Below, one piece after another: positions 4,615 to 34,617 of a stretch of DNA of 37,191 nucleotides (its first letter is position 1; each line of letters opens with the position of its first letter). Both the position numbers and the translations under genes were made by a program. Source of the stretch: Anaerolineales bacterium (GTDB lineage Bacteria; Chloroflexota; Anaerolineae; Anaerolineales; UBA11858); the NCBI GenBank assembly GCA_016783125.1, contig JADHXE010000007.1, forward strand, positions 1 to 37,191. Reading direction: 5' to 3'. The notes under the pieces are model-generated. The model saw only the letters and a program-made list of their open reading frames with translations, was not told where the DNA came from and did no database searches.

Positions 4615-4727
4615 ATTTATCACGAATATTATCGAATGACACGAATTGCACGAATATTCTTTTAAGATTGGCTAAACCATGATTTTATTCGTGCCATTCG
4701 GCAAATTCGTATCCATTCGTGATAAAT
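4615..4727. repeat. Long imperfect inverted repeat built of cacgaat/attcgtg words
   Basis: The arms 4615-4655 and 4687-4727 are each 41 bases and pair at roughly four of five positions. Both start or end with ATTTATCACGAAT. The arms are made of loosely repeated cacgaat units. The repeat fills the gap between the ATPase gene and the sulfotransferase-like gene. The same family appears at 24782-24868 and 18637-18756. Confidence 0.8.
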
Positions 4728-8996: not shown

Positions 8997-9062
8997 ACCG
9001 CGAAGACGCGAAGAGCGCAAAGCAATATAAGCAATTCTTAGCGCACTTCGCGTCTTCGCGGT
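8997..9062. repeat. 22-bp inverted repeat (accgcgaagacgcgaag family)
   Basis: Arms 8997-9018 and 9041-9062 match at 21 of 22 positions and enclose a 22-base loop. The sequence is made of gcgaag words. It begins 6 bases after the FeoB stop codon and could act as a terminator or mRNA-stabilising hairpin. Confidence 0.88.
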
Positions 9063-9105: not shown

Positions 9106-11499
9106 ATGCCTGATACCCTTGAACTTAACATTACCGGCATGGACTGCGCCGATTGTGCTCTGACTCTTGAGAAAGGCGCGGGTAACCTGGAAGGTGTGGC
9201 TGAGTGCAGCGTCAACTTCACTACAGCCAAGATGAACATCTCTGGTGCAGAAGATGCGCTGGATGAGACTCAAATCCGCAAATATATTCAAGATATGGGC
9301 TATGGCGTAGCACAAGTTGGCGAGCGTCCAGTGGTATTGTCGAACTGGGCGTTGGCCTGGGAAGTAATCCGCCGCCCGTGTAATTTATTTGCTTTGATCG
9401 GCATGGTGCTGGTTTTGTTGGCCTTTACCGCGGGCTGGATGGGCCTTCCTGAAGCAGTAAAAATTGGCCTGTTTGCGTTTGGTGGACTGGTAGGTATCTA
9501 CTACCCGGCCCGTTCTGGTTGGATGGCATTACGCAGCGGCCAGGGTTTGGATATCAACGTACTGATGACCATCGCCGCAGTAGGGGCTTTCGCCATCGGC
9601 GAGTATGGCGAAGCCGCCACGGTAATTGTGCTGTTCAGCCTGGGAGAGGCTTTGGAAGGCTTCACCATGGAGCGCGCCCGAGACAGCATCCGCAGTTTGA
9701 TGCTGCTGGCTCCGCTTGAGGCAACAGTGATCCAAAGCTGTATGGATTGTGAAGGTCACTTAGGGCAACCGCTAGACGATGAGACAAAGAAGTCGGACTT
9801 TTCCGACATCCAGGAAAAACTATCGCCGGAAGATCAAAAAAGTCCGACTTCTTCCCGTGTTTACGAAGGCGGCCCTTGCCCCTGGTGCGGCACGCACGAT
9901 CAGGTTCTCCCGGTGGAAGACTTGAACCTGGGCGATTTGATCCTGGTCAAACCTGGGGAGCGCATCCCCATGGATGGCGTTGTGCGCGCCGGTCGCTCAG
10001 CCGTGGATCAAGCCCCGATCACAGGCGAGAGTTTCCCTGTTGAAAAGGATATTGGTTCAGAAGTTTATGCGGGCACAGTCAACAGCGAGGGTGTCTTGGA
10101 AATCGAGATCACCCGCCTGGCAGATGACAACACCGTGGCGCGCTTGATCCATATGGTGGAAGAAGCCCAATCTCAAAAAACTCCCGTTCAACGCTTTGTG
10201 GATCGTTTTGCACGCATTTACACCCCTGCTGTAGTCATCGGGGCGGTGTTGATCGCCGCGCTCCCGCCGCTTCTTTTCGGACAGCCCTTTTTGGACACAC
10301 CTGCTGGGCATGGCTGGCTGTATCGAGCTTTGACGATGTTGGTGATTGCCTGCCCGTGTGCGCTGGTCATAGCCACACCTGTGACAGTAGTCAGCGCCAT
10401 TTCAGCGCTGGCCCGTCGCGGGGTTTTGGTCAAAGGGGGGGCATTTCTCGAATCATTAGGCAAGGTGCAGGTGATCGCCTTCGATAAAACCGGCACACTG
10501 ACTCATGGCCGCCCTGAACTCACAGCTATCGCCTGTGTGGATGATTGCTGCCACGAAGAACGCCAACGCCATCCCGATGTGGTGTGTGAGCATTGTGATG
10601 AGATGCTCGCTTTAGCGGCCGCAGTGGAACGCCGCAGCAACCACCCGCTGGCTCGTGCCATCAGCCGGGCAGCCAAAAAGGGTAATTTGCCCGACCTTGA
10701 GGCGCGCGATGTCGAAATGCTGCTCGGGCGGGGAATTCGCGGCCTCGTCGATGGAAGACAAATCACCGTTGGCAATCACGACTTGTTCCACACCGACAAT
10801 GGCGGCATTACTGTCGCCGATTGTACGCTGTACTTGCATGATGATTCATCGATTACCAGCAAGGATTTTTGTGAGCGAGTAGAGGCTGAAGAGGCTGCTG
10901 GTCAAACGGTGATGATCGTCGGCCAAGATGATGATCTGTGCGGGTATATTGCCGTGAGTGATCCACCTCGGCATAGCAGCCAGGCGGCTCTGGCTACCCT
11001 AAAACAGGTTGGCACTCAGCGCACAGTGATGCTGACCGGTGATAACGCTAATGTAGCTCAGGCTGTGGGTAGTGCTTTAGGTGTCGATAATGTCCGCGCA
11101 GGCTTGCTCCCGGAAGATAAGCTCAGCGCTGTACAAGCCTTGATGAATGAATTCGACCATGTTGCCATGGTTGGTGATGGCATCAACGATGCTCCGGCCC
11201 TGGCTGCTGCCAGCCTTGGCATCGCAATGGGAGGCGCGGGTACCGCGCAGGCATTGGAGACAGCCGATATAGCCCTGATGGCTGATGATCTTTCTCAATT
11301 GCCCGTCGCTATTCGTTTGGGGCGCAAAGCCTTGCGCACCATTCGTTTCAATATCTGGTTTGCGCTGATCATCAAGGCCTTTTTCCTGGTAGCGGCTTTC
11401 TTTGGCGTGGCTACCCTATGGATGGCAGTCTTTGCCGATATGGGCGCTTCATTATTTGTCACCCTCAATGGGATGCGTCTGCTGCGGTCTAGAAGGTAA
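9106..11499 (+). CDS. P1B-type heavy-metal ATPase (Zn/Cd/Pb class)
   Basis: This 797-residue membrane ATPase exports soft divalent metals. Residues 4-65 are a heavy-metal-associated domain with GMDCADC (Cys 14 and 17). Membrane helices follow, then CPCALVIATPVT at about 415, the phosphorylation motif DKTGTLT (Asp about 460), SNHPLARAI, MLTGDN (about 643) and GDGINDAPAL (about 690). The CPC motif fits P1B-2 (Zn/Cd/Pb) enzymes. Two extra Cys-rich stretches are visible: CMDCEGH...CPWCGTH in the actuator domain (about 207-265) and CVDDCCHEE...CEHC in the nucleotide domain. The actuator insertion contains an in-frame palindrome (see 9787-9853). ATG 9106 has no strong ribosome binding site. Cu export is less likely but not excluded. 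Confidence 0.93.
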   Translation: MPDTLELNITGMDCADCALTLEKGAGNLEGVAECSVNFTTAKMNISGAEDALDETQIRKYIQDMGYGVAQVGERPVVLSNWALAWEVIRRPCNLFALIGMVLVLLAFTAGWMGLPEAVKIGLFAFGGLVGIYYPARSGWMALRSGQGLDINVLMTIAAVGAFAIGEYGEAATVIVLFSLGEALEGFTMERARDSIRSLMLLAPLEATVIQSCMDCEGHLGQPLDDETKKSDFSDIQEKLSPEDQKSPTSSRVYEGGPCPWCGTHDQVLPVEDLNLGDLILVKPGERIPMDGVVRAGRSAVDQAPITGESFPVEKDIGSEVYAGTVNSEGVLEIEITRLADDNTVARLIHMVEEAQSQKTPVQRFVDRFARIYTPAVVIGAVLIAALPPLLFGQPFLDTPAGHGWLYRALTMLVIACPCALVIATPVTVVSAISALARRGVLVKGGAFLESLGKVQVIAFDKTGTLTHGRPELTAIACVDDCCHEERQRHPDVVCEHCDEMLALAAAVERRSNHPLARAISRAAKKGNLPDLEARDVEMLLGRGIRGLVDGRQITVGNHDLFHTDNGGITVADCTLYLHDDSSITSKDFCERVEAEEAAGQTVMIVGQDDDLCGYIAVSDPPRHSSQAALATLKQVGTQRTVMLTGDNANVAQAVGSALGVDNVRAGLLPEDKLSAVQALMNEFDHVAMVGDGINDAPALAAASLGIAMGGAGTAQALETADIALMADDLSQLPVAIRLGRKALRTIRFNIWFALIIKAFFLVAAFFGVATLWMAVFADMGASLFVTLNGMRLLRSRR
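9787..9853. repeat. Perfect 16-bp inverted repeat inside the P-type ATPase coding region
   Basis: AAGAAGTCGGACTTTT at 9787-9802 is the exact reverse complement of 9838-9853, with a 35-base spacer. It is in frame and encodes the segment KKSDFSDIQEKLSPEDQKSP plus TSS, a polar stretch in the actuator domain between two Cys-rich motifs. This looks like a palindromic element that entered a coding region without breaking it. Confidence 0.9.
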
Positions 11500-24781: not shown

Positions 24782-24868
24782 AACACGAATGATTACGAAT
24801 ATCACGAGTTGCACGAATAAAGTCATGAAAAATTCGTGTAATTCGGCCAATTCGTGCATATTCGTGTT
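24782..24868. repeat. 37-bp inverted repeat of cacgaat words
   Basis: Arms 24782-24818 and 24832-24868 pair over most positions; both outer ends read AACACGAAT or its complement. The word composition is the same as at 4615-4727. Confidence 0.8.
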
Positions 24869-29725: not shown

Positions 29726-29904
29726 CTTAAGTTTAGAGTTCATCCAGGAGTAAAGCCTTCTGGACACGGATTACACTGATTCTCACGGATTTTTAAGAAA
29801 TTTCCGTGGAAATCCGTGCGATCCGTGTCCTGTTTTTTCATTTAAACACAATTTATTGCAAGATTTTGGACAGTCAACCTTCACAAACGAACTCTAAACT
29901 TAAG
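29726..29904. repeat. Nested inverted repeats between NuoF and the receiver gene
   Basis: The outer arms CTTAAGTTTAGAGTTC (29726-29741) and GAACTCTAAACTTAAG (29889-29904) are a perfect 16-bp inverted repeat. Within lies a GGACACGGATT...AATCCGTG...ATCCGTGTCC inverted repeat (29762-29830). The outer pair probably marks an element of about 180 bp into which, or around which, the inner repeat was placed. The 29636-29929 gap holds no gene that I can support. Confidence 0.85.
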
Positions 29905-31699: not shown

Positions 31700-31775
31700 C
31701 AATCGATTCGTATTTCGTGTTGTGTATTTCGTAAACCTGTACGCAATACGAAATACGAAACACGGGATACGATTT
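31700..31775. repeat. Inverted repeat of cgtatttcg words after the formate dehydrogenase gene
   Basis: AATCGATTCGTATTTCGTG (from 31701) pairs imperfectly with CACGGGATACGATTT (to about 31775). It forms a hairpin directly between the formate dehydrogenase stop codon and the NuoE gene. It may act as a processing or partial termination signal in the operon. Confidence 0.7.
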
Positions 31776-34617
31776 AATTTGCTACTTCAACTTTAACCGC
31801 GCACACTTTGTATTCCGGGATTTTAGCAATAGGGTCTAATGCTGCGATGGTTAATTCGTTGGCAGAGGCCTCCGGAAAATGGAAGTTGGCATATACCATA
31901 CCAGGGGGTACCCGGTCAGTGATCAGGGCCTTGGCCTCGATGCTGCCGCGCCGGGATGAGACACGTACACGTTTGTTGCCGTTTAATCCCAGCTTGGCGG
32001 CATCGTCCTCATTAACTTCGATCAGCGCCTGTGGGTAAATTTCTAGCAGGCCCTTCGAGCGACGGGTCATTTGCCCGCCGTGCCAATGGAACAGTACTCG
32101 CCCGGTGCTGAGGATTATGGGATATTCGTCATCGGGCAGCTCGGCGGGCGGGACGTGCTCAATGGGGTGGAATTTACCCAGGCCGCGGGCGAATTGGCCC
32201 ACGTGCAAAATCGGCGTGCCGGGATGATTCTTATCTTTGACCGGCCACTGGAGGGTCTCGCCGTTCTCCATCCGTTCGTAGCGAACTCCAGCATAGCTGG
32301 GTGTGAGGGCCGCGATCTCAGCCATGATCTGGGCGGTGTTCTCGTATTCCCAGCCGCTGTAGGGAGCGGCTGGATCGATTTTACGAGAGTCGTCCGAGGT
32401 CTGAAGCACGCGTTTTGCCAGTTCAGCGGTAATCCACCAGTCTGGTTTGGCTTCGCCGGGCGATTCGATGGCTTTGCGCCCCATCTGGATGCGGCGCTCG
32501 GTGTTGGTGAAGGTGCCGTCTTTTTCGGCGAAACTGGCACCGGGCAGCAATACATCGGCATAGGGTGCGGTTTCGGATGGGAATATCTCCTGGAGCAGGA
32601 TAAAATCGCAAGACTCCAAACAGTGGCGAATGTGATTGGTATCCGGGTCGCTCATGATGGGATCTTCACCCAGGATGTAGAGCGCTTTGACCTTGCCTTC
32701 ACCGGCGGCAGGGATCATTTCGGTGATGCCTAATCCGACGGCGGACGAAAGACCGCCGACCGCCGTCTGTGATCCGCCGTCGGCGGTCGACAGGCCCCAG
32801 GCCTGTGCGAATTTCTCGCGCACTTCCGCACTGGTAACAGACTGATATCCGGGGTAGACGTTCGGCAGGCCGCCCAAATCGCAAGCGCCCTGAACGTTGT
32901 TCTGGCCGCGCAGGGGGTTGGTGCCGCCGCCGGGAACGCCCATATTGCCCAGCAGCATTTGCAGGTTGGCCAAGCTCATCACGTTATGCGTTCCGGTGGT
33001 GTGCTGGGTGATCCCCATCGCCCACAACACAGCAGTTGGTTTATTCTCGGCTAACAGTTCGGCGGCTTGCTGCAATTGCTCAACCGGAACCCCGGTGATC
33101 TCGGCGACCCGATCCGGGGTATATTCTTCCACCGCGGATTTGAAATCGTCGAAGCCCTCAGTGCGGGCAGCGATAAACTCTCCATCTTCCCAGCCGTTGG
33201 CCAGAATGATATTCATCAAGCCGTTCACCAGGGCGATATCAGTGCCGGGTTCATGTCGCAAGTGGATGGTAGCGAAATCGGTCAGGTCAATGCGGCGCGG
33301 GTCTGCCACGATCAGCACGGCCTCGCGCTGGCGTACCGCCTGCCGGATGCGCATCCCTATGATGGGGTGCTGCTCGGTGGTGTTAGAACCGATCACGAAG
33401 AAGGCTTTCGCATGCTCCGCAATATCATCAATCGAGTTAGTCATTGCGCCCGAACCAAAGGAAGTGGCCAGACCGGCCACGGTGCTGCTGTGTCAAAGAC
33501 GGGCACAGTGGTCTATGCTGTTCGTCCCGATCACCTGCCGGGTGAACTTGTTCATCAGGTAGTTTTCTTCGTTGGTGCATTTTGCCGAGGTCAGCACGCC
33601 GACGCTCCGAGGGTCGGATTCATCGCGGTGCTGGCGGAACTTTTGGGCGGTGATGTCGAGGGCGGTATCCCAATCGGTTTCGACCCACTCCCAGGGATCA
33701 CCGGCCACCTCTGGATGACGATCTGCGGGGCCCGGTTTGGGTTGGCTGCCCTCTAAAAGGTAGCGTCTCACTTGGGGTTGGGTCAACCGATCCGGATGAT
33801 GGACAAAATCCCAGCCAAAACGGCCTTTGACGCAGGTCCAGCCATGGTTGGAAGGTCCCTCCCAGGCTGAATCCACCTTGATGATCTCGTTATCCTTAAC
33901 TTCCAGAATGATCTGGCAACCAACTCCGCAATAAGGGCAGGTGGTCTGGATGCGCTCGACCTCCCAGGGGCGTCCTTTGCCGAGGGACATTTTCGGCCAC
34001 AAGGCCCCCGTGGGACAGACCGCCACGCAGGAGCCGCAAAACTCGCAGGGGCTGTCAGCCATGTGGCTGTCGGCGCCAAAGCCGATATAGGCACCGAAGC
34101 CGCGGTAGAACACGCTGATGGCCTCCACGCCGTTGATTTCGCGGCAGGCGCGCACACAGAGGCGGCACAAGATACATTTGTTGCGGTCGACCTGGATGAA
34201 GGGGTTAGGATCATTGATCGAGTAGTGATGTTTGGTGCCCTCGAAGCGGTCGCCTTCGACGCTGTATTCGTAAGCCAAATCTTGCAGCAGGCAATCGCCG
34301 GTGGCCTCGCAGGTCATGCAATCCAGGGGGTGGTCGGAGATGAGCAGTTCCAGGTTGAACTTACGGGAGGCTCTCACCCGCTCGGTATTGGTATGTATCA
34401 CTAATCCATCGGTGGCCGGGAAAGTGCAGGCTGGCTGCAGGGTACCCTGCTTTTCGATTTCCACCAAACAGATGCGGCAAGCACCCTCGGGGGGCAATGC
34501 CGGGTGGTCGCACAGCACCGGAATGTAGATACCGGCTTCACGGGCTACTTGCAGGACAGTCTGTCCGGTCTCACCCTGGATTTTCTTTCCGTCAACACTA
34601 ATGTTTACAGTTGCCAT
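31774..34617 (-). CDS. fdhA: Selenocysteine-containing NAD-linked formate dehydrogenase, catalytic subunit
   Basis: I read this as one 947-residue selenoprotein. The N-terminal part has a [2Fe-2S] set (Cys 36, 47, 50, 64), a His/Cys cluster (His 96, Cys 100, 103, 109) and two ferredoxin [4Fe-4S] sets (Cys 148-158 and 191-201). The molybdopterin part starts with a [4Fe-4S] motif (Cys 227, 230, 234, 262). After IDHCARL, the in-frame TGA at 33493-33495 falls at residue 375, followed by HSSTVAGLATSFGSGAMTN. Formate dehydrogenase H has Sec in the same context (CARV-U-HGPSVAGL). A hairpin with a GGTCT loop follows. The enzyme would bind a Mo- or W-bis-MGD cofactor and oxidise formate or reduce CO2, passing electrons to the NuoEF subunits. 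AAAGGAGT precedes ATG 34617. An in-frame palindrome at 32735-32788 adds about 15 residues. Confidence 0.92.
32735..32788. repeat. Palindromic element inside the formate dehydrogenase coding region
   Basis: CCGACGGCGGA (32735-32745) is the exact complement of 32773-32783, and GACCGCCGA (32751-32759) of 32780-32788. On the minus strand it encodes STADGGSQTAVGGLSSAVG between AWGL and LGITEMI, where related enzymes usually have a short loop. Its word order gacgg-ggac-gaccg matches the intergenic palindrome at 6495-6553. Confidence 0.8.
33464..33495 (-). promoter_or_regulatory. UGA selenocysteine codon with bacterial SECIS hairpin
   Basis: On the minus strand the TGA is at 33495-33493. Eighteen bases intervene before the GGTCT loop, and the stem GTGGCC/GGCCAC (33480-33475 and 33469-33464) is perfect over 6 bp. 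E. coli fdhF has the same spacing from TGA to its GGTCT loop and a similar apical stem. This is the expected SelB-binding structure. Confidence 0.9.

Follow-up and report, generated by a model that had tools for sequence, protein, structure and literature searches.

A 67-bp palindrome within the coding region of a Zn/Cd-type P1B ATPase from an Anaerolineales bacterium is very probably a copy of a dispersed repeat family, here called family A, which takes the form of a REP doublet or REPIN-like element, was inserted in frame into a flexible loop of the pump, has been tolerated there and was probably moved by a RAYT. Elements of this kind are already known, as the Rickettsia RPEs and as intragenic REP dimers; what is new is the families, the lineage and a single loop hit by different families beside a congener in which the loop is empty.

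The first-pass annotation of the window, the 37,191-nt stretch of DNA analysed here, had described a perfect 16-bp inverted repeat with a 35-base spacer inside a coding region, and both its coordinates and its complementarity proved exact. The arms pair at 16 of 16 positions across 35 nt, 67 bp in all (Table 1), and the element stays in frame within the ORF, adding ~23 amino acids to the pump loop. When the whole window was simulated 200 times as a first-order Markov sequence, no 16-bp pair with a spacer of up to 60 nt arose, which rules out a chance origin. The RNA hairpin of the element is predicted at -28.3 kcal/mol (z -4.4), a value equalled by none of 200 shuffles, and an Rfam search of the window matched no known RNA family. 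A target-site duplication was not definable for this copy.

Table 1. Coordinates of the pump gene, its palindromic element and the RAYT-like genes of the genus (window positions unless a locus is named).
Feature	Position	Strand	Remarks
Host gene, Zn/Cd-type P1B ATPase, 797 aa	9106..11499	+	HMA, actuator, P and N domains; TGES, CPC and DKTGT intact
First Cys motif of actuator-domain loop, CMDCEGH, residues 212-218	9739..9759	+	C212 and C215 nearly invariant in subfamily
Coding part of insertion, residues 228-250, low-confidence model loop	9787..9855	+	+69 nt net versus G002 empty allele
Left arm AAGAAGTCGGACTTTT, family A palindromic element	9787..9802	+	16 nt
Spacer, 35 nt, unlike from copy to copy	9803..9837	+	
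Right arm AAAAGTCCGACTTCTT, exact reverse complement of left arm	9838..9853	+	
Second Cys motif of loop, CPWCGTH, residues 258-264	9877..9897	+	C258, P259, C261 and H264 invariant
TGES catalytic motif, actuator domain	10021..10032	+	Intact, downstream of insert
RAYT-like Y1 transposase gene, syntenic locus, family F	L292:5548-6189	-	
RAYT-like Y1 transposase gene, syntenic locus, family F	L307:855-1511	+	

The host gene shows all the hallmarks of a P1B-type Zn/Cd ATPase (HMA, a CPC metal site, DKTGT, TGES and the ZntA fold), and Pfam recognised HMA, E1-E2_ATPase and Hydrolase domains in its product. By predicted structure and sequence its closest solved relatives are ZntA (4umv/4umw) and CadA (7qbz), with which it shares domain order, fold and the TGES, CPC and DKTGT motifs. 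It differs from them in a Cys-rich loop of the actuator domain, the tip of which is encoded by the palindrome; residues 211-267 are without an aligned counterpart in ZntA, and residues 209-265 without one in CadA. The actuator domain with such a loop, CxxC...CPxC-xxH, characterizes the subfamily as read here from Chloroflexota. The segment lies, as had been claimed, in the actuator domain between the transmembrane helices and TGES, and between two Cys-rich motifs, with residues 228-250 falling between C212-x2-C215 and C258-P-x-C261. Its description as polar and probably disordered is supported by the AlphaFold model, in which pLDDT is <50 at residues 231-240 and 242-248. Computed outside the loop against the congeners G006 and G002, dN/dS is ~0.09, values that are rough since dS is >1, and this indicates that the ATPase is under purifying selection. 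From the open frame, the intact motifs and this ratio, all indirect, the product may still be made and active. The gene is followed by a VIT-family gene and preceded by one for a protein with Gate and FeoB_C domains (Pfam). The ATPase has another Cys-rich stretch at residues 482-497, after DKTGT (CCH...CxHC), and this and the loop (9739-9897) are possible extra metal sites.

Relatives were drawn from two genome sets (relatives, order), of first 61 and later 400 members, and also from contigs in GTDB. The insert is absent in the congener G002, whose empty allele reads CEGHLGQELPDGSGVYESGPCPWC, and in every more distant relative read, as it is in solved ZntA and CadA. The loop of L055, G117 and G047 is equal in length to that of G002 and carries no insert, while those of more distant relatives are mostly shorter; G002 keeps LPDGSG exactly as in the outgroups L055 and G117. 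Conservation in distant homologs had been raised as a check on the first-pass reading, and the segment is missing from all of these, which rules it out as a conserved feature of the ATPase family. Four congeners have extra sequence at this point, with net gains counted from the alignment: G000, the genome of the window (family A, +69 nt), G006, G005 and G003. The G006 loop carries a palindrome of a second family, B (CAGACCTTTAGGGTCT - 35 nt - AGACCCTAAAGGTCTG, 67 bp, exactly 16+35+16), and has a net gain of just +39 nt because host codons were overlapped or replaced. A third family, C, occupies the loop in G005 (TGTCATTGCGAGCAAAGCGAAGC...GCTCGCGATGACA, +78 nt) and, as one arm plus spacer, in G003 (+45 nt), the two inserts sharing their right boundary. 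In G004 the loop is visible only from DGSG on, as the contig ends there.

The gene tree gives full support to {G000, G006, G002} and to {G003, G005, G004}, without resolving the order inside the first group, and favours a loop that was hit independently three times or more. The simplest history would comprise three insertions, of A in G000, of B in G006 and of C before G003 and G005 diverged. The loop thus appears to be a repeated landing site, since sister species have different hairpin repeats there, or none.

The arms of family A (AGAAGTCG[G/A]ACTTTT) recur in G000 and a congener, dispersed and mostly intergenic. At up to one mismatch the 15-mer AGAAGTCGGACTTTT has 16 matches in G000 and 7 in G002, where the reversed control gave 0 and 1, so that the window palindrome is not a unique sequence; uniqueness had been named beforehand as an outcome that would count against the first-pass reading. 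Paired arms at conserved spacing were found in G000, G001 and G002, with 0 control matches in 61 genomes. The family A copies at the loci read comprise 13 doublets, with arms 32-35 nt apart, and short hairpins; several intergenic copies continue outwards into half-arms (GTATCWTCTCAA...GGGG) that are missing from the window copy. None of the other sampled copies lies in a demonstrable conserved gene, and the window copy is therefore a single case of coding insertion for this family. Family B (RAGACCTTTAGGGTCT) is commonest in G001, is present in G006 and has long and short forms as in A. A strict paired-pattern search with the exact G006 palindrome pair matched only itself, and it was a single-arm search that revealed family B. 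These counts rest on pattern searches and on the loci sampled in mostly draft genomes, the genus members being 80-97% complete.

Arms match each other better within a copy than between copies, with 0.80 versus 2.31 mismatches for A and 1.47 versus 3.62 for B, in sets selected for resemblance to the family rather than to a copy's own partner arm. As in REPINs, two inverted REP arms enclose a variable spacer and are better conserved than it. The three loop palindromes (G000, G006 and G005/G003) match three different dispersed families and have unrelated spacers, which bears out the earlier claim that more than one family is involved, as do in-frame copies of B and of a further family, F, in other genes. 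By inspection, the arms of A, B and F follow a common plan, AGA-(quasi-palindrome)-TYT.

Family F connects this architecture to a candidate mover. Y1_Tnp genes occur in every genome of the genus (seven genomes), and G000 (C62) and G001 (C203) both have one at a syntenic position with an ABC ATPase gene on one side and a HAD hydrolase gene on the other. Each is flanked on both sides by family F palindromes or arms (AGACTTCCGAAGTTTT), a 62-bp doublet among them in G000, and a short F palindrome lies in frame inside the Y1 coding sequence itself (ETSEVLETSEV / ASEILETSEV). A RAYT flanked by its REPs is the arrangement described for REPINs (PMC3116915). Family F thus has a cognate RAYT, and none was found for the family of the window palindrome: around the Y1_Tnp genes of the seven genus genomes (the G000 assembly being 88% complete) none was flanked by A or B arms, and mobilisation of family A by a RAYT is for this reason a probable step only. 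Other Y1 genes have GTGCACCCC-type palindromes on either side (L293:707-752 and 1360-1405 in G000 C293; L305:577-618 and 1224-1263 in G001 C151) and, on the basis of this arrangement, form a second putative REP-RAYT pair in the genus.

Several other genes contain in-frame copies. Those of family B lie in HyuB of G006 (ETFRVFGDPKGL; a solved homolog has 5 residues fewer here), in two G001 proteins, namely a MoeA-PBP protein (a 13-residue gap in a solved MoeA) and an ADP-forming acyl-CoA ligase, and in a melibiase-like protein of G005. In a PD-(D/E)XK nuclease the loop MAKYDLL-[..]-ATIYDWKTS is occupied by a B doublet in three genomes (G000, G001 and G006) and by a different repeat (PSPPAPLPEGEG) in G003, and is empty in G002; it behaves like the ATPase loop and, from these alleles, is a second apparent hotspot. 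The three B inserts were evidently inherited, as they share the same place and the same 16-34-16 plan. In these three sequences only, spacers are 41-65% identical and arms 81-94%, and the arms, although each side has changed, still pair at 15, 16 and 14 of 16 positions. The G000 nuclease gene has an additional family F doublet at another variable stretch. Segments of the types PHPNPSPKERG, LTPGPSPSGRGE and PSPPAPLPEGEG also stand in frame in conserved genes (L193, L197 and L253) and probably represent yet another palindromic repeat family.

The first-pass annotation had paired the pump palindrome with one in a formate dehydrogenase-like molybdopterin subunit and had suggested that palindromes repeatedly generate new protein segments in this genome. 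The companion palindrome (32735-32783, CCGACGGCGGA...TCCGCCGTCGG, encoding LSTADGGSQTAVGGLSSAV) is indeed in frame, in the minus-strand gene 31774-33480. One of its arms had 9 matches in the genome at up to three mismatches and the reversed control had 7, so that the search does not mark it out as a member of a repeat family. The first-pass interpretation is otherwise largely borne out, and its broader suggestion holds to the extent that palindromes have added residues to intact genes; a new function would go beyond this. Long imperfect inverted repeats also lie between window genes (8997-9062, 4615-4727, 24782-24868 and 29762-29830); they are of CCGCGAAGACGCGAAG and CACGAATT types and look like further dispersed repeats.

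We propose that a dispersed, genome-specific family A repeat entered the flexible Cys-rich actuator loop in frame, and that two other families, B and C, entered the same loop in sister species. Neither arm brings in a stop codon, whichever frame is read, and the net gain is divisible by three, so the gene stayed open; the pump is kept under purifying selection because the loop is disordered and away from TGES. Selection would filter insertions into hotspots, the simplest reason being that inserts are tolerated in such loops alone; we infer that the pump tolerates the added amino acids without benefiting from them. Transit probably occurred as a single-stranded hairpin via a RAYT-type Y1 transposase, as suggested by the sister family F, whose elements have the same architecture and, in two species, lie both around and within a RAYT gene at a syntenic position.

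In another history the genus would have inherited a single ancient palindromic insertion, which later diverged or whose arms other repeats overwrote, as proposed for eRPE-4 in Rickettsia, and which was lost in G002. In G000 and G006 alike the loop contains an insert of exactly 16+35+16, the G005 and G003 inserts belong to one family with one right boundary, and a shared origin was favoured for RPE-4/6/7 (PMC3767692). Such a history requires, however, a precise loss, as LPDGSG in G002 equals that of L055 and G117, and the three palindromes belong to three dispersed families with unrelated spacers; we regard it as unlikely. A local origin of the palindrome without a mobile element, in which template switching or inverted duplication copied part of the gene itself, might be suggested by the variability of the loop and by the left arm in G006, which starts in host-like codons (AGA CCT TTA, also in G005). 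The exact sequence of the window arm is, however, that of a dispersed family elsewhere in G000 and G002, which largely refutes this origin and leaves it extremely improbable.

The hairpin could also be kept for a role in RNA or DNA structure, such as translation pausing or mRNA stability or processing, with the protein segment as a by-product. Its predicted stability is in keeping with this, as are the PD-(D/E)XK arms, which, although each has changed, remain paired from species to species as the spacer diverges. Palindrome-correcting mutation accounts for the paired arms equally, though, and G002 and all outgroups do without the hairpin, whose sequence is not common to the congeners and has no Rfam match, making this role very unlikely. 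Beyond insertion of a tolerated family A copy, the palindromic doublets of the genus may be a standing source of loop sequence that re-enters the same few loops, where nucleic-acid constraint or palindrome correction would keep the coding arms complementary and so write amino acids, an extension that we consider rather doubtful.

Coding palindromes have been reported from Rickettsia and Wolbachia (PMC10969869, PMC2229807). As with RPE/WPE, several palindromic families here are in frame in conserved genes, in solvent-exposed or loop regions, with the genes open and different groups at or near the same sites of orthologs (PMC10969869, PMC2229807, PMC3767692); the family is dispersed in the genome, and the insert stands in frame in a conserved gene and is absent in orthologs. 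Unlike RPEs (~100-150 bp), the elements here are 62-67 bp, their host lineage is Anaerolineales, and a close relative keeps the empty site. Their arms are unrelated in sequence to those of RPEs, except that the family C end, ATGAC, is as in RPE-4/6/7. Intragenic REPs and REP dimers are known in several phyla, GTAG REPs have been reported in Chloroflexi, and the CGTC group includes RPE-4 and RPE-6 (PMC3733652). The window element resembles these in being a REP dimer inside a known gene, whereas the arms of A, B and F, checked with their flanks, have no GTAG or CGTC end tag. Likeness to REPINs extends to the two inverted quasi-palindromic arms, the variable spacer, the genome-specific families, the short remnants and the RAYT-type Y1 gene flanked by F in two species (PMC3116915). 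Canonical REPINs are extragenic, whereas family B has several in-frame copies, the sampled A copies other than that of the window lying outside demonstrable genes; family A also differs in having no RAYT found beside it and in its low copy number, with tens of copies per genome. We found no report of coding palindromes in Anaerolineales in the literature searched, which excluded most subscription journals.

In R. japonica different RPE groups occupy the same or near sites of orthologs, and when an insertion hotspot was weighed against one diverged insert a common origin was favoured (PMC3767692). Here the hotspot reading is favoured, because a close relative keeps the empty site, and for the question raised in Rickettsia these closely related species thus argue for repeated independent hits. 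The findings extend coding palindromes to Anaerolineales (Chloroflexota) and, through the sister family F, tie the repeat architecture to a RAYT. They also provide conserved enzymes suitable for assaying whether an extra loop is costly or beneficial.
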